A stretch of 64,000 bases of DNA from contig LNEY01000033.1 of NCBI GenBank assembly GCA_001464195.1, positions 1 through 64,000 of the forward strand. Direction: 5' to 3'. This document shows, one piece after another, positions 2,322 to 30,115 of this stretch. The stretch comes from Burkholderiales bacterium Ga0077547. GTDB taxonomy: Bacteria; Pseudomonadota; Gammaproteobacteria; Burkholderiales; Burkholderiaceae_C. The translations under genes and the position numbers were made by a program. Below the pieces are notes generated by a model. That model searched no databases and had not been told where the DNA came from. It worked only from the letters and a program-made list of their open reading frames with translations. The first letter of the stretch is position 1. Every line of letters starts with the position of its first letter.

Positions 2322-4160
2322 TCACGTCGGCTGCGGTGTGGCGCGGGTCAAGGCCGCCTTCAGTCGGGATCGACTTTGCATCAGCTGCGCGCTGCGCGCC
2401 TGGATGTCCGGAGACATCAGCCCGGATTCAAACAGCAGTTTCAGCTCGTGATCGACCTCTTGAAGTCGCAACTGATCGAGTAGCAGATCGAGCTGACATT
2501 TCAGATCCGTCTCGCTTTCCGGGTCGTGGAGCTGCGCGATGCGGCGGAGCGTGGCACGGGCGAGTTCGTCGTCATGTTCGGCTCGCGTCAGTTCGTCCAA
2601 CAGCGCCGCAGGTCCGATGGGCCCATGCTCGTGCAGACTGCGCTCGACGCTGGCGAACAGCGCCGCGTAGGGTGCCGTCTGGTCGGCCAGCAGGTCATGC
2701 GCTTCGTCATCGATCTCCCACCAGAGCTCTGCGCGGTGCAGCAGCAGCCACAGCACACGGTCCAACTGGTTGGCGGTGCCCTGACGCGCCGCCCTGACGA
2801 GCCGGCGCGGCGGGGCAGCCACGTCGGTGGCAGGTGAGCGAACTTTCACGGCGCCGGCGGCCCAGAGGTCGCTCAGTTCGCTGATCTCCAAGGTGGCAAC
2901 GTTCGCGATCTCTCCGAGCAGCTGGCGCTTCAAGGCTCCGTCGGGCAGCGCCGACCAGAGTGGGCGGGCGATGGCAAGAAAGCGTGCGCGTCCCTCGGCC
3001 GTCAGCATGTCGCAGCCTTCCCGAGCGGCGGCAACGAGCTGGCGTGACAGCGGCACGGCCTGCTCGATGCAGCGGGCAAAACCGTCGGTGCCGTGCTCCC
3101 GCACATACGAATCGGGATCGTGCTCGGCGGGCAGGAACAGGAAGCGGATGCTGCGCACGTCCGTGGCATGGGGGAGTGCGGCCTCCAACGCGCGACCCGC
3201 CGCCCGCCGCCCCGCTGCATCGCCATCAAAGCTGAAAACCACCGAGTCGGTGAAGCGGAAGAGCTTTTGCACATGCTCGGCGGTGCATGCCGTGCCGAGG
3301 GTGGCGACCGCGTTCGGGAAGCCCAGTTGCGCCAGTGCCACCACGTCCATGTAGCCTTCGACGACCAGGACGAAGCCGTGCTGCCGGATCGCTGCTCGTG
3401 CCTCGAACAGGCCGTACAGCTCACGGCCTTTGCTGAACACCGGAGTCTCGGGCGAATTCAGGTATTTGGGTTCGCCGCGGTCCAGCACCCGCCCGCCGAA
3501 TCCGATCACATCGCCTTGTACCGATCGGATCGGGAACATGATGCGGTCGCGAAAACGGTCATAGCGTTTCGCTTCGGTGGACGGATCATCGGATTCCTGC
3601 GCAATCACCAAGCCGCTCTCTTCGAGCAGTGGATCGTCGTAGCGCGGGAAGGCGCTGGCCAGCGGACGCCACCCGTCGGGCGCATAGCCCATCGCGAAAC
3701 GGGCCGCGATCTCGCCACTCAGTCCGCGTTGCTTCAGGTAGTCGATGGCGCGTGGACTGGCCTTGAGCTGATGTCGGTAATGCGTCGCCGCCCTCGCCAG
3801 CACATCGGCCAACGTACTTTGCCGTTCCTTCAACTGGACTGCGCGGGCGCGCTCTTCCGGGGATCGATCGTCCTGCGGCACGGTCATGCCGACCTGCTGA
3901 GCCAGATCGTTGACGGCATCGAGGAAGCCCATGCCGGCATGTTCCATCAGGAACCCGATTGCGTTGCCGTGCACGCCGCAACCGAAGCAGTGGTAGGTCT
4001 GGCGCGAGGGGCTGACCGCGAAACTGGGGGACTTTTCGCCGTGGAAGGGGCACAAACCCATGTGGTTGGCGCCCGATTTCTTCAAGGTGACGTGTCGGCC
4101 TACGACCTCCGCGATGTCGACGCGGGCAAGCAGATCCTGGATGAACGAGGGCGCGATCAC
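2322..4160 (-). CDS. dnaG: DNA primase DnaG
   Basis: Synthesises RNA primers for replication and works with the replicative helicase DnaB. It is 612 residues, a normal length. The N-terminal CHC2 zinc finger is intact (C37, H40, C58, C61). The TOPRIM catalytic domain follows, with EGYMDV near residue 267 and DGDAAG near 310 supplying the metal-binding acidic residues. The region after about 470 corresponds to the helicase-interaction domain, which is poorly conserved. The ATG at 4158-4160 gives the standard MIAPSFIQDLL start. It is followed by rpoD on the same strand after 275 nt. Confidence 0.97.
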   Translation of the reverse strand: MIAPSFIQDLLARVDIAEVVGRHVTLKKSGANHMGLCPFHGEKSPSFAVSPSRQTYHCFGCGVHGNAIGFLMEHAGMGFLDAVNDLAQQVGMTVPQDDRSPEERARAVQLKERQSTLADVLARAATHYRHQLKASPRAIDYLKQRGLSGEIAARFAMGYAPDGWRPLASAFPRYDDPLLEESGLVIAQESDDPSTEAKRYDRFRDRIMFPIRSVQGDVIGFGGRVLDRGEPKYLNSPETPVFSKGRELYGLFEARAAIRQHGFVLVVEGYMDVVALAQLGFPNAVATLGTACTAEHVQKLFRFTDSVVFSFDGDAAGRRAAGRALEAALPHATDVRSIRFLFLPAEHDPDSYVREHGTDGFARCIEQAVPLSRQLVAAAREGCDMLTAEGRARFLAIARPLWSALPDGALKRQLLGEIANVATLEISELSDLWAAGAVKVRSPATDVAAPPRRLVRAARQGTANQLDRVLWLLLHRAELWWEIDDEAHDLLADQTAPYAALFASVERSLHEHGPIGPAALLDELTRAEHDDELARATLRRIAQLHDPESETDLKCQLDLLLDQLRLQEVDHELKLLFESGLMSPDIQARSAQLMQSRSRLKAALTRATPQPT

Positions 4161-24677: not shown

Positions 24678-26942
24678 ATGCTGCGCTTTCGCTTTCCGAT
24701 CGTGATCATCGACGAGGACTACCGCTCGGAAAACACCTCCGGCCTGGGCATCCGTGCGCTGGCGCAGGCCATCGAGAAAGAGGGTTTCGAGGTGCTGGGC
24801 GCCACCAGCTATGGCGACCTGAGCCAGTTCGCGCAGCAGCAAAGCCGCGCCAGCGCCTTCATCCTGTCGATCGACGACGAGGAGTTCACGCCCGGCCCCG
24901 AGCTTGACCCGGCGGTGCTGAACCTGCGCAAGTTCATCGAGGAAATTCGCTTCAAGAACGCCGACATCCCGATCTACATCTACGGGGAGACGCGCACCTC
25001 GCAGCACATCCCGAACGACATCCTGCGCGAGCTGCACGGCTTCATCCACATGTTCGAGGACACGCCGGAGTTCGTGGCCCGTCACATCATCCGCGAGGCC
25101 AAGAGCTACCTGGGCGGTCTGCCGCCCCCTTTCTTCAAGGCGCTGATGGACTATGCGCAGGACGGCTCGTACAGCTGGCACTGCCCGGGCCACTCAGGCG
25201 GCGTGGCGTTCCTGAAGAGCCCGGTCGGCCAGATGTTCCACCAGTTCTTCGGCGAGAACATGCTGCGAGCGGACGTGTGCAACGCGGTCGAGGAACTGGG
25301 GCAACTGCTCGACCACGATGGCGCCATCGGCGCCTCAGAGCGCAACGCGGCGCGCATCTTCAATGCCGACCATTGCTTCTTCGTCACCAATGGCACCAGC
25401 ACCAGCAACAAGATGGTCTGGCACCACACCGTGGCGCCCGGCGATGTGGTGGTGGTCGACCGCAACTGCCACAAGTCGATCCTGCACGCGATCATCATGA
25501 CCGGCGCGGTGCCGGTGTTCTTGCGGCCCACGCGCAACCACTACGGCATCATCGGCCCGATCCCCCAGGCCGAGTTCTCGCCCGAGGCGATCCGCCAGAA
25601 GATCGCTGCCAACCCGCTGCTCAAGGGCGTCAATGCCAAGACCGTCAAGCCGCGCATCCTGACCTTGACGCAGAGCACCTACGACGGCGTGCTCTACAAC
25701 ACCGAGACCATCAAGCACGCGCTCGACGGCTACATCGACACGCTGCATTTCGACGAGGCCTGGCTGCCACACGCAGCTTTCCACCGCTTCTACGGCAGCT
25801 TCCACGCCATGGGCAAGAAGCGCGCACGGCCGAAGGACCAGATCGTCTTCGCGACGCAGTCCACCCACAAGCTGCTCGCCGGCATCAGCCAGGCCAGCCA
25901 GGTGCTGGTTCAGGACGCGGTCGATCGCAAGCTGGACCGGCACCTCTTCAACGAGGCCTACCTGATGCACACCAGCACCAGCCCGCAGTACGCCATCATC
26001 GCGAGCTGCGACGTGGCGGCCGCGATGATGGAAGCGCCGGGCGGCCCGGCGCTGGTCGAGGAAAGCATCAGCGAAGCGCTCGACTTCCGCCGCGCGATGC
26101 GCAAGGTCGACAAGGAGTTCGGCAACAAGGATTGGTGGTTCAAGGTCTGGGGCCCGGACAAGCTGTGCGCCGACGGCATTGGCAAGAGCGAGGACTGGGT
26201 GCTCAAAGCGGGCGATAAATGGCACGGCTTCGGCAACCTGGCCGAAGGCTTCAATCTGCTCGACCCGATCAAGAGCACCGTGATCACGCCCGGGCTGGAC
26301 ATGTCGGGCAAGTTCGCCAAGACGGGCATCCCGGCGTCGATCGTTACCAAGTATCTGGCCGAGCACGGCATCGTGGTCGAGAAAACCGGGCTTTACTCGT
26401 TCTTCATCATGTTCACCATCGGCATCACCAAGGGCCGCTGGAACACGATGGTGACTGCGCTTCAGCAGTTCAAGGACGACTACGACCGCAACCTGCCGAT
26501 GTGGAAGATGCTTCCGGAGTTCGTTGCCAAGTACCCGCGCTACGAGCGCATGGGGCTGCGCGACCTGTGCCAGAGCATCCACGCGATGTATGCCAAGGGT
26601 GACATCGCCAGGCTGACCACCGACATGTACCTGTCGGACCTGCAGCCGGCGATGAAGCCGAGCGACGCCTACGCCTACATCGCGCACCGCAAGACCGAGC
26701 GCGTGGAGATCGACGCGCTGGAAGGGCGCATCACCACCACCTTGCTGACGCCCTACCCACCGGGCATTCCGTTGCTGATCCCGGGTGAGGTGTTCAACAA
26801 GAAGATCGTCGATTACCTGCGCTTCACCCGAGACTTCAACGCGGCGTTTCCTGGCTTCGACACCGATGTGCACGGCCTGGTCGAAGAAGAGGCTGAAGAC
26901 GGCAGCAAGCGCTACGGGATTGACTGCGTGCGGGAAGATTGA
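24678..26942 (+). CDS. Biodegradative-type arginine/lysine/ornithine decarboxylase
   Basis: 754 residues, fold-type I PLP decarboxylase. An N-terminal response-regulator-like wing (MLRFRFPIVIIDEDYRSENTS) is followed by the catalytic core with WHCPGHSGG near residue 170, HFDEAWLPHAAFHRFY, the Schiff-base lysine K398 in STHKLLAG, and the C-terminal domain. The family consumes protons and yields agmatine, cadaverine or putrescine. The HFDEAW block and overall length fit the arginine/lysine group; the exact substrate is not decidable here. The ATG at 24678 is the family start, since upstream sequence lies in the nfeD promoter region. No antiporter gene is adjacent. Confidence 0.93.
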   Translation: MLRFRFPIVIIDEDYRSENTSGLGIRALAQAIEKEGFEVLGATSYGDLSQFAQQQSRASAFILSIDDEEFTPGPELDPAVLNLRKFIEEIRFKNADIPIYIYGETRTSQHIPNDILRELHGFIHMFEDTPEFVARHIIREAKSYLGGLPPPFFKALMDYAQDGSYSWHCPGHSGGVAFLKSPVGQMFHQFFGENMLRADVCNAVEELGQLLDHDGAIGASERNAARIFNADHCFFVTNGTSTSNKMVWHHTVAPGDVVVVDRNCHKSILHAIIMTGAVPVFLRPTRNHYGIIGPIPQAEFSPEAIRQKIAANPLLKGVNAKTVKPRILTLTQSTYDGVLYNTETIKHALDGYIDTLHFDEAWLPHAAFHRFYGSFHAMGKKRARPKDQIVFATQSTHKLLAGISQASQVLVQDAVDRKLDRHLFNEAYLMHTSTSPQYAIIASCDVAAAMMEAPGGPALVEESISEALDFRRAMRKVDKEFGNKDWWFKVWGPDKLCADGIGKSEDWVLKAGDKWHGFGNLAEGFNLLDPIKSTVITPGLDMSGKFAKTGIPASIVTKYLAEHGIVVEKTGLYSFFIMFTIGITKGRWNTMVTALQQFKDDYDRNLPMWKMLPEFVAKYPRYERMGLRDLCQSIHAMYAKGDIARLTTDMYLSDLQPAMKPSDAYAYIAHRKTERVEIDALEGRITTTLLTPYPPGIPLLIPGEVFNKKIVDYLRFTRDFNAAFPGFDTDVHGLVEEEAEDGSKRYGIDCVRED

Positions 26943-26998
26943 GGCTTGCTGCTTCGAGTTCGGCGCGGTAGCACTGCGGCGGGCCACTGTGTTGCGTT

Positions 26999-27284
26999 CA
27001 TGTCCCCCGGGCCGGTTCACCCTTCATTTGCTTCGGCTCAAGCCGCTCCGGCCCTCCTCCTTTACTTCACTCCACACAGCGGCCCACCGCAGCGCTCCTG
27101 CCACCACCGAAGCAGGCTGGGTTTGAAGCCTTTGCATGCGGCAATGGTGCTTGCTGTCGAGGGTGTGGGGTGACCGGCGCAGCGAAGTAAAGGGGGAGGG
27201 CCGGATCGGTCTTGCCGGAAGCGTTCTGGCCGTGATCCGGCCCGGAGGACATGAGCGGAGCCGGTCACCCCGCGCCCTCGACAG
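26999..27284. repeat. Interleaved long inverted repeats (mutually exclusive stems) in the 360-base decarboxylase-dxs gap
   Basis: This is the only gene-free stretch over 300 bases. Stem A: 26999-27015 with 27237-27253 (16 of 17). Stem B: 27047-27068 with 27184-27205 (21 of 22, the exception a G-U pair). Stem C: 27154-27178 with 27260-27284 (23 of 25, both exceptions G-U). Stem D: 27198-27207 with 27234-27243 (10 of 10). A encloses B and C encloses D, but C crosses A and B, and D shares bases with both, so A+B and C+D cannot form together. The covering frames lack coding character. It lies between two convergent genes. It could be a structured RNA, a complex bidirectional terminator, or a decayed repetitive element. 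Confidence 0.8.
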
Positions 27285-27302: not shown

Positions 27303-29207
27303 TCACTGATGCACAGCCGGCCGCACCAGCGCCGGACGACCGCCGAAGCGCTTCAGGATCGATTGCTCGATGCCTGCGGCGTCGAGCCCGCAGCGCGACA
27401 TCAGCACCGCCGGGTCGCCGTGTTCGATGAACTCGTCGGGCAGTCCCAGCACCAGCACCGGTGTCGCGATGCCGGCCTGTTGCAGCGCTTCGAGCACCGC
27501 CGAGCCTGCGCCGCCCATCGTGCAGCCGTCTTCGACAGTGACCAGCGCATCGTGCGTACGCGCCAGCTCGGCGACCAGCTCCGCATCGAGCGGTTTCGCG
27601 AAGCGCATGTTGGCTACCGTCGCGTCCAGGCGCTCGGCGGCGTCCAGTGCGGCGTAAAGCAGGGTGCCGAAAGCCAGGATGGCGATGCGCTTGCCGTGTG
27701 CGCCGTTGTTCTGCCCCGCCTCGCGACGCACCTCGCCCTTGCCGAGCGGGATCGCCGTCATCGCAGACTGCACCTCGACGCCCACACCCTTGCCGCGCGG
27801 GTAACGCACGGCGGTCGGGTGATCCTGCAGGAAAGCGGTGTACAGCAGCTGACGGCATTCGTTCTCGTCGGCCGGCGTCATCACGCTCATGTTCGGGATG
27901 CAACGCAGGAAGGCGATGTCGTAGTTGCCCGCATGCGTCGCGCCATCGGCGCCAACCAGGCCCGCACGGTCGAGCGCAAACACCACCGGCAGGTTCTGGA
28001 TTGCCACGTCGTGGATCAGCTGGTCGTAGGCGCGCTGCAAGAAGGTGGAATAGATCGCAACGACTGGCTTCAAGCCCTCGCAGGCGATGCCCGCGGCGAA
28101 GGTCACCGCGTGCTGCTCGGCGATGCCGACGTCGTGATACCGGTTCGGAAAGCGGCGCTCAAACTCCACCATGCCCGAGCCTTCGCGCATCGCCGGTGTG
28201 ATGCCGACCAGCCGCTCGTCCTGTGCCGCCATGTCGCACAGCCAGCTGCCGAAGACCTGGGTGAAGGTCGGCTTGCCGGGCGCTGCGGCCTTGATGCCCA
28301 CCGCCGGGTCGAACTTGCCGGGCCCGTGGTAGTTGATCGGGTCGTTCTCGGCCAGCTTGTAGCCCTGGCCCTTCTTGGTGACCACGTGCAGGAACTGCGG
28401 CCCTTTCAGGTTGCGCAGGTTCTCCAGCGTCGGGATCAGTGCGTCGAGGTCGTGGCCGTCGATCGGGCCCACGTAGTTGAAGCCGAACTCCTCGAAGATC
28501 GTGCCCGGCACGACCATGCCCTTGGCATGCGACTCGAAGCGGCGCGCCAGTTCCAGCAGCGGCGGCGCGTTCTTCAATACCGACTTCGCGGTGTCACGCG
28601 CATTGGCATAGAAACGACCGCTCATCAGCCGCGCCAGGTAGCGATTCAGCGCGCCCACCGGCGGCGAGATCGACATGTCGTTGTCGTTCAGGATCACCAG
28701 CACGTCGGCACCGGCGACGCCGGCGTTGTTGAGCGCCTCGAATGCCATGCCAGCGCTCATGGCGCCGTCGCCGATGACCGCGATCGACTTGCGGTGCTCT
28801 CCCTTCAGTGCAGCGCCCACCGCCATGCCGAGCGCTGCCGAGATCGATGTCGATGAATGCGCGGTGCCGAACGTGTCGTACTCGCTTTCGTCGCGGCGCG
28901 GAAAGCCACTGATGCCACCGAGCTGCCGCAAGGTGCCCATGCGGTCACGGCGGCCGGTCAGGATCTTGTGCGGATAGGTCTGGTGGCCGACGTCCCACAC
29001 GATGCGGTCGTTCGGGGTGTTGAACACATGGTGCAAGGCGACCGTCAGCTCGACCGTGCCGAGGTTGGACGACAGATGACCTCCGGTCTGCGACACGCTG
29101 TGCAGCAGGTAATCGCGCAACTCGCCTGCCAGTCGGTGCAGTTCGCTGCGAGACAGGCGCCGGACATCGGCGGGAGATTCGATCGATTGGAGCAGTGCTT
29201 GTTTCAT
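27303..29207 (-). CDS. dxs: 1-deoxy-D-xylulose-5-phosphate synthase Dxs
   Basis: 634 residues, thiamine-diphosphate enzyme that condenses pyruvate and glyceraldehyde 3-phosphate, the first step of the MEP isoprenoid route. [17 protein letters not shown], the ThDP motif [18 protein letters not shown] and the transketolase pyrimidine domain with [11 protein letters not shown] and [15 protein letters not shown] are all present. The start is ATG 29205-29207 (MKQALLQSI), 2 nt after the ispA stop, giving the usual xseB-ispA-dxs operon. The family is unambiguous. Confidence 0.98.
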
Positions 29208-29209
29208 CG

Positions 29210-30115
29210 TCAACGGTCCCGTTCCACCACCTTGTCAGCCAGCACGCTCAGCCACACCGTGTCGCGCAGCGCCGAGCGCGACAGTGCCGATTGCGCCTGA
29301 TCGCGCAGGGCCATCGCATGTCGCCGCGCTGCGTCCAGCCCCATCAGACTGACATAGGTGGGCTTGTTGGCATCCATGTCCTTGCCTGCTGTTTTACCGA
29401 GCTTGTCCGATGCCTGGGTCACGTCGAGCACATCGTCGATGACCTGGAAGGCCAGCCCGATCGAGTCTCCGTAAACCTCCAGCGCTGACCAGGCTGCGGT
29501 GTCGATGTCGCCGCAGGCCGCGCCCATCATCACGCTGGCCCGCAGCAGGGCACCGGTCTTGCGACGGTGCATGTCGCGCAGGCTGTGTTCATCCAGCGGG
29601 CAGCCGACGCTGGCGAGGTCGATGGCTTGGCCGCCGGCCATGCCGGCATGGCCGGCGGCCCGGGCCAGCAGGCCGCAGAGCCGCGCTTGCAGCGCCGCCG
29701 GAACGGCCTCCTCAACGTTGGCCGATGACTCGGGGGTCAGCACCTCGAAGGCCAGCGCTTGCATCGCATCACCGGCCAGCATCGCGGGCGCTTCGCCGAA
29801 CTGCACATGCACCGTCGGCTTGCCGCGTCGCAGCACGTCGTTGTCCATGCAAGGCATGTCGTCATGCACCAGCGAGTAGGCATGAATGAGTTCAACGGCG
29901 CATGCGGCCCGCAGCGATGCCATGCGCCGGCCGCCGACCGCATGCGCCGCGGCCAGCGCCAGCAGCGGGCGCAACCGCTTGCCACCATCCAGTACCCCGT
30001 AGCGCATCGCGGTGCCGAGGCCCGCCGGCGCGTCAGCGGGCACCCAACGTCCCAGGCAGTCTTCAACCGCTGCCAATTGGGCGCGTGCCCAGGTGTCGAA
30101 ATCGGCAACCGTCAT
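29210..30115 (-). CDS. ispA: Farnesyl diphosphate synthase IspA
   Basis: 301 residues, short-chain prenyltransferase that makes farnesyl diphosphate. The first aspartate-rich motif DDMPCMDND and the second DDVLDV are intact; [13 protein letters not shown] at the N-terminus is the diphosphate-binding segment. The ATG at 30113-30115 overlaps the xseB stop by 4 bases. Confidence 0.97.

Follow-up and report, generated by a model that had tools for sequence, protein, structure and literature searches.

The window, by which we mean the whole 64,000-nucleotide stretch of DNA analyzed here, contains two convergent genes, one for an Orn/Lys/Arg decarboxylase, whose start at 24816 is our choice, and the other dxs. 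The best NCBIfam match of the decarboxylase is LdcC at 632 bits, below the LdcC cut-off of 968. Between the two genes, the region 26968-27284 consists of two hairpin modules in inverted orientation, with the following features:

24816-26942, plus strand: Orn/Lys/Arg decarboxylase, convergent (Pfam OKR_DC_1, 501.6 bits, cut-off 27)
26968-27098: left hairpin module, purine strand on the minus strand (model R1, 86.0 bits, E 1.5e-17)
26970-26997: left outer helix, arm 1 (stem E), pairing with 27069-27096
26998-27008: left conserved loop half TCATGTCCCCC, purine strand GGGGGACATGA (from the alignment)
26999-27015: stem A, arm 1, with 27237-27253; cross-module complementarity without covariation support
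27009-27054: left inner hairpin, 27009-27015 with 27048-27054
27047-27068: stem B, arm 1, with 27184-27205; cross-module complementarity without covariation support
27055-27068: left conserved loop half TCCTCCTTTACTTC, purine strand GAAGTAAAGGAGGA (from the alignment)
27069-27096: left outer helix, arm 2, partner of 26970-26997
27099-27153: spacer between the modules, 55 nt in the window and alike in the genus copies
27154-27284: right hairpin module, containing stems C and D, purine strand on the plus strand (R1, 99.9 bits, E 9.6e-21)
27154-27183: right outer helix, arm 1, with 27255-27284 (26 Watson-Crick pairs, 2 G-U, 2 mismatches)
27184-27197, plus strand: right conserved loop half GAAGTAAAGGGGGA (from the alignment)
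27198-27243, plus strand: right inner hairpin, with stem D at 27198-27207 / 27234-27243
27244-27254, plus strand: right conserved loop half GGAGGACATGA (from the alignment)
27255-27284: right outer helix, arm 2, the sharp right end of the element
27303-29213, minus strand: dxs, convergent (TIGR00204, 882 bits, cut-off 466)

R1 is a covariance model constructed from 30 modules of 26 loci (alignment A4), all outside the window, and up to an E value of 1 it matches the left and right modules and nothing else in the 64 kb. A preliminary description of the region had listed four stems, A to D, and all four are present where it placed them, with 16 Watson-Crick pairs and one C·A in A, 21 and one G-U in B, 23 and two G-U in C, and ten Watson-Crick pairs alone in D; in a repeat search, A, B, and C come out with arms that are longer but imperfect. 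The list was incomplete, however, in that a fifth stem, E (26970-26997 / 27069-27096; 23 pairs and five mismatches on the plus strand), had been overlooked. With E included, the layout is one of two local hairpins (E, and C+D) or of one cross-pairing (A+B). The assertion that the stems lie beyond chance is borne out by DNA folding, with z scores of -8.06 (right module, plus strand) and -5.48 (left module, minus strand) against 200 dinucleotide shuffles each, and in neither case does any of the 200 shuffles fold as well as the module.

In each module, which is some 100-130 nt long as a whole, the internal loop GAAGTAAAGGRGGA / GGRGGACATGA separates an outer helix of about 30 positions from a variable inner hairpin. 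When 30 modules taken from 26 loci that lie outside the window are aligned, 92.8% of alignment cells are paired as compared to 61.4% in shuffles, and 338 cells carry double-sided changes (94.5 when shuffled), distributed over 34 of the 37 pairs. Among 147 distinct modules from 114 loci, positions 6-28 of the outer helix pair with frequencies of 0.69-0.98 per position, against 0.39-0.93 with partners dealt anew; positions 3 and 5 are mismatches and position 4 is weak. Pairing drops at positions 29-31 (145 modules), and the helix is thus of fixed length. Arm-to-arm template switching in palindromes can yield double-sided changes without selection.

The loop is near-invariant in alignment A5, which holds the best 150 of 173 matches from 100 chosen loci, although part of this conservation is by choice because loci were selected by their exact loop; the partner modules found by R1 were not so picked. 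The composition of A5 also means that its 46 'single' modules are an overcount. Two loop purines vary, and since they are A/G or G/A in 148 of the 150 modules (120 and 28, respectively, with two A/A and no G/G), they appear to exchange as a non-canonical pair would. In two rows of alignment A2 (G506_m1 and G435_m1) a change of GAAG to GAAA accompanies one of ATGA to ATTC, a joint two-sided change that hints further at cross-loop contacts.

The preliminary description interpreted A+B and C+D as alternative functional folds, with the region acting as a switching RNA or as a bidirectional terminator with two states. When the element is folded in full, A+B does appear in the predicted minimum-energy structure, and across 17 copies from the genus 92.7% of the A+B cells are paired, a value reached by eight of 500 shuffles, with a covariation score reached by four of 500. 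(These copies form alignment A1, 17 of 22 references, omitting the short or rearranged L006, L052, L206, L039, and L015.) However, related sequences that share a conserved inverted repeat can produce such pairing and scores, and the A+B pairs changed on both sides number six, close to the 4.5 of the shuffles (91 of 500 reach it). In the same copies the local fold has 14 double-changed pairs as compared to 4.7, with none of 500 shuffles reaching that number. Compensatory changes, which the preliminary description had named as a criterion, thus support the local modules and not A+B.

Comparison of 62 module pairs from other genomes leads to the same result. Partner arms are identical at 13.66 of 28 positions on the 5' side and 13.79 on the 3' side, against 14.39 and 14.71 for unrelated modules, and the cross-folding gain is -36.6 kcal/mol as compared to -36.1 kcal/mol with unrelated partners. 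Loop type is mixed between partners in 18 of the 62, where overall frequencies predict about 19. Because neither the likeness nor the folding gain across modules is better than for unrelated pairs, A+B is not separately maintained. Two inverted modules that share one loop sequence are automatically complementary in it, which is how stems A and B arise. Single modules and half-deleted copies also persist, and the elements are located 3' of genes and not in leaders, so that the switch reading is very improbable in spite of the 14 of 21 host-genome copies that lie between convergent genes. Nor do its terminator properties find support in T-runs: in the 25 nt flanking the modules on the outside, 53 pairs have a longest T-run of 1.35 nt on average, as compared to 1.55 in random 25-mers.

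A role as a terminator was rejected on the same absence of T-runs after the hairpins, and one site (L013) has a separate terminator-like hairpin. There the element is situated between the stop codon of the left gene and this hairpin, which is preceded by an A-run; the hairpin is also found in two genomes without the element (G002 and G010), and a T-run following it is visible in L211.

The preliminary description had suggested searching for the unit in the genome and its relatives, and BLAST with the 401-base region gives 65 matches in the host genome (E ≤ 0.001), spread over more than 20 distinct sites; R1 has at least 32 matches there. BLAST also matched 14 of 40 genomes, 12 of them of the host genus (host included) and two others of the family. 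Of 120 genomes sampled from the host family, 59 match R1, representing 57 of 115 genera, with from one to at least 32 modules per matched genome under strict filters, and often few. Beyond the family the range narrows: an order-wide R1 search matched five of 150 genomes, two of the host family (host included) and three of one genus in another family. An exact-pattern search matched 30 of 200 genomes family-wide and two of 370 class-wide (the host and one other), and an exact search for the loop gave at least 116 stretches among 84,980 species genomes. The 80 of these matches listed by name are mostly from Burkholderiales (Rubrivivax, Hydrogenophaga, Rhizobacter, Variovorax, Methylibium, and others), with some from Luteimonas and Pseudoxanthomonas. 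No plasmid matched a 336-base query, and no viral contig had an exact-pattern match.

The region is thus one copy of a dispersed, non-coding, palindromic paired-hairpin element, organized like REP/BIME, and the family is apparently both widespread and uncatalogued. At the Rfam gathering score the 64-kb window contains three tRNAs only and no family over a module; the sub-threshold matches of modules are to microRNA-precursor families only. In 17 of 116 loci no Rfam family matches over the modules; a single sX13 match (RF02232) lies beside those of L129, from Luteimonas terricola (2810-2923, minus strand), at 47 nt from the module. sX13 is a small RNA of the Xanthomonadaceae. Identity with a 'Betaproteobacteria toxic small RNA' was rejected, as no Rfam match was found in the window or in the 17 of 116 loci. 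In the portion of the literature covered, the letters of the loop motif occur only in papers that are human or mammalian by title, and none of six taxon names looked up occurs in the RepRanger paper (PMC12306157).

The alternative of a repeat element, which the preliminary description also raised, is supported by these many dispersed copies, but the target-site duplications that it associated with such an element were not seen, nor was a clean insertion; the one empty site (G002 and G010) has diverged too far for a duplication to be read. Among 26 longer copies in genus loci the right end is sharp and common, whereas the left end is soft. A classical MITE or transposon remnant, mobilized by a transposase recognizing terminal inverted repeats, would be dispersed, non-coding, and palindromic, and might have such a sharp end. 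But the modules share no terminal repeat, their distal outer arms vary from genome to genome, and the conserved part is internal; no duplication was seen either, and this explanation is quite improbable. One genome (G466) contains alternating arrays of three or four modules. In L045 and L191 the left modules appear, as read by eye, to have been lost between short direct repeats (CAGCGC and AGCG), in the manner of slippage deletions of hairpins.

Modules sit downstream of genes and rarely between divergent ones. In loci no longer than 8 kb, with genes called by our own program after training on 350 ORFs, the gaps containing modules are 62 same-direction, 31 convergent, and two divergent, as compared to 100, 17, and 63 among other gaps of at least 100 nt; two further modules are within genes and 45 are not between two called genes. 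The 21 host-genome copies (21 of 30 BLAST loci, the rest repeating the same places) are distributed as 14 convergent, six same-direction, and one divergent, and the window has two convergent, 11 same-direction, and six divergent gaps of at least 100 nt. Where modules share a gap, 56 of 60 pairs are inverted one way, four the other, and none is direct; for R1 matches within 150 nt the numbers are 49, three, and none. The core-to-core distance is 100-107 nt in about 30 of the 56 pairs of the main arrangement, and one same-orientation pair, 398 nt apart, is present in L112. Neighboring genes in 20 loci resemble, in our reading, ordinary metabolic genes, and some pairs separate members of a single pathway, lying between hpaE and hpaD, between nifE and nifN, between genes for 2-oxoacid oxidoreductase alpha and beta-like proteins (the latter scoring below the cut-off of its best model), and between prkA and its neighbor. 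Module pairs in such places, hpaE-hpaD and nifE-nifN among them, may alter expression.

This location is compatible with a cis-acting RNA in 3' untranslated or intercistronic regions that shields the mRNA of the preceding gene from 3' exonucleases and makes expression uneven along an operon, with the loop as a protein-binding RNA motif. Location between neighboring same-direction genes and compensated changes at orthologous sites (see below) both agree with such a role, and REPs are credited with roles of this kind in parts of PMC3733652. The mispairs, however, point elsewhere. On the pyrimidine strand, helix positions 6-28 contain 249 C·A and 30 G·T, where 422 and 297 are expected with partners dealt anew, and the bias persists when one module is counted per locus (197 and 28). 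A C·A on the pyrimidine strand corresponds to a G-T wobble on its complement, and so it is the purine strand whose pairing is kept. In same-direction gaps the ratio of C·A to G·T is 101:5 where the purine strand is sense (48 modules) and 71:5 where it is antisense (46 modules), and the bias therefore follows the module and not the direction of the genes. Pyrimidine-sense transcripts thus carry C·A rather than G-U, which is not expected if the transcript is selected. Because the purine strand tolerates wobbles also when it runs antisense to the genes, a transcript is unlikely to be the recognized molecule, and a cis-acting RNA is on balance unlikely, albeit the most plausible of the rival explanations.

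A folded DNA strand can explain the bias in both directions, whereas a one-way transcript does not, and we infer that the molecule recognized is the purine strand in the form of a single-stranded DNA hairpin. The bias could also arise from C-to-T damage of an often single-stranded purine strand, or from antisense RNA. A dedicated RNA is conceivable but lacks support, because the spacer is unlike a promoter and no T-run follows the hairpins. In 53 pairs the spacer has a GC content of 0.659, as compared to 0.606 and 0.600 in the flanks, and TANNNT occurs 0.06 times per spacer, against 0.17 and 0.21 in the flanks and 0.36 in shuffled sequence. A divergent promoter in the spacer, giving two purine-strand RNAs, was rejected on this GC-richness and scarcity of TANNNT. 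The independence of the strand bias from transcription makes the choice between a DNA hairpin and an RNA directly testable.

Excerpts of PMC3733652 describe REPs as 20-40 bp long, and REP/BIME as intergenic hairpins, often in opposite-orientation pairs, found between same-direction or convergent genes, with G-T in their stems and presumed mobile; according to portions of PMC8266576, single-stranded REP is recognized strand-specifically and a bulge is required, and parts of PMC2817692 report copies often exceeding 100 per genome. The modules are likewise paired in inverted orientation, intergenic, and seldom between divergent genes. They differ in size, being about 100-130 nt with a helix of some 30 positions and a 14/11-nt internal loop as compared to the 20-40 bp given for REPs in those excerpts, and in having no GTAG/CGTC tag above control at the foot of the helix: at both feet of 145 modules GTAG, CTAC, CGTC, and GACG occur 4, 8, 16, and 15 times, and 5, 7, 19, and 31 times in the further-out control.

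Neither are the modules linked to Y1/RAYT transposases. None of 15 genus genomes exceeds the Y1_Tnp cut-off, although two weaker matches are present. By R1, Y1 is found in 17 of 25 genomes with modules and 17 of 20 without (45 genomes listed of 61); by exact pattern the proportions are 18 of 31 and 25 of 30, with ten of the 30 genomes scored as module-free having R1 matches. Among 32 fetched Y1 loci none has the full module motif, and nine have a half motif with at most one mismatch. RAYT mobilization was rejected, since Y1/RAYT genes do not follow the modules, and these searches found no mobilizing enzyme. Because the tag, size, and RAYT tests fail, we do not class the element in the REP family, even though it would work like a REP.

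Integron attC sites and the ends of IS200/IS605 elements are recognized as folded single DNA strands. These two are named together in part of PMC8266576, and the modules would share with them the reading of a folded single strand; they differ in that Y1 genes do not follow the modules and that the neighbors look like ordinary metabolic genes in 20 loci. Another parallel is the BRE (Beta-proteobacterial repeat element), which portions of Hot et al. 2011 (PMC3110155) describe as a dispersed, GC-rich, mostly intergenic Betaproteobacteria repeat of 75-91 bp that is suspected to be mobile, with some loci in tandem and no or few nucleotides between repeats. Going by that description, both are dispersed, GC-rich, mostly intergenic Betaproteobacteria repeats with suspected mobility, but 0 of 60 and 0 of 52 neighboring module pairs are direct. 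BRE may be related to the modules or even identical with them, and this is the main risk to a claim of novelty.

Some copies appear to have been retained at a gene end over a long period. An hpaD match is present in 111 of 397 genomes, and modules are positioned just upstream of hpaD in seven of 30 fetched loci; by coordinates G570 is an eighth genome with this arrangement. HpaE is called upstream in all three loci examined (L216, L217, and L218, with the family checked for L217). In five genomes of four genera the arms of the first module are 0.64-0.86 identical, as compared to a mean of 0.43, a 95th percentile of 0.60, and a maximum of 0.72 among other modules. This suggests, from sequence likeness, that the five copies descend from one shared insertion, with which G780 does not fit and G541 is borderline. 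The first modules (n=7) have 20 of 37 pairs changed on both sides and the second modules (n=6) 25 of 37, numbers reached by none of 500 shuffles in either case, and loops are 0.89-0.91 identical while arms are 0.57-0.61. A purely selfish repeat should decay at hpaD, so that some local function or turnover process must be invoked as well.

The explanation that we favor, and consider probable, is that of a non-coding, dispersed, REP/BIME-like element of two inverted modules that is recognized as a folded DNA strand. The purine strand would fold as a hairpin, either when transiently single-stranded or as a cruciform arm, and its purine-rich internal loop, held at a fixed place in the helix, would be read by a putative enzyme or by a protein of the host. 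Recognition of the loop would also spread the copies, which would accumulate downstream of genes because those landing in a gene or promoter are eliminated. Some gene-end copies would stay long, possibly since a double hairpin after a gene is useful, and we speculate that the use could be mRNA 3'-end protection or supercoil handling.

More tentatively, the modules could represent a new class, a strand-specific single-stranded-DNA hairpin element with an exchangeable-A/G purine loop at fixed distance in a covarying helix, read by a putative factor other than a RAYT transposase, present in about half of the sampled family genera, and kept by selection at some gene ends; we regard this as possible, though somewhat short of even chances. 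A structure with 34 of 37 covarying pairs and a near-invariant loop in 57 of 115 genera is presumably recognized by something, and the searches made here turned up no partner for it. If an enzyme moves the modules it is probably outside the Y1/RAYT group, whereas a host protein that binds them, should there be one, might be a novel gene-end factor.

Some modules also carry other insertions. A second palindrome, which contains GCCAGGCACAAACAGTCC and then its inverted copy, is inserted at TCATG^TCC of the conserved loop in modules of seven loci (L006, L010, L038, L149, L153, L185, and L206) with at least three different outer stems, and is free-standing in L099 and L157. Its presence at the same loop point across different outer stems suggests that it is a site-specific guest of the modules. 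In L190 (about 2528-2588) a different insertion, seen in one copy, breaks the other loop half within CTCCCCCTTTACTTC.

At the dxs locus, the element adjoins dxs in eight of 14 readable genus genomes, five having both modules (G000, G003, G014, G006, and G008) and three the right module only (G009, G004, and G013), with other sequence at the site in six (G001, G002, G007, G010, G011, and G012); dxs was not found in G005 in this comparison. A glyoxalase-family gene lies between the decarboxylase gene and the element in six loci (L043, L044, L045, L047, L052, and L058), the assignment having been checked for L043 (Pfam PF00903). The corresponding interval of the window, 26943-26967, is without the gene that these relatives have (at 3815-4237 in L043). 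The best-scoring module of the host genome (G000:C33:66875-66980) is located about 2.9 kb past the end of the window.
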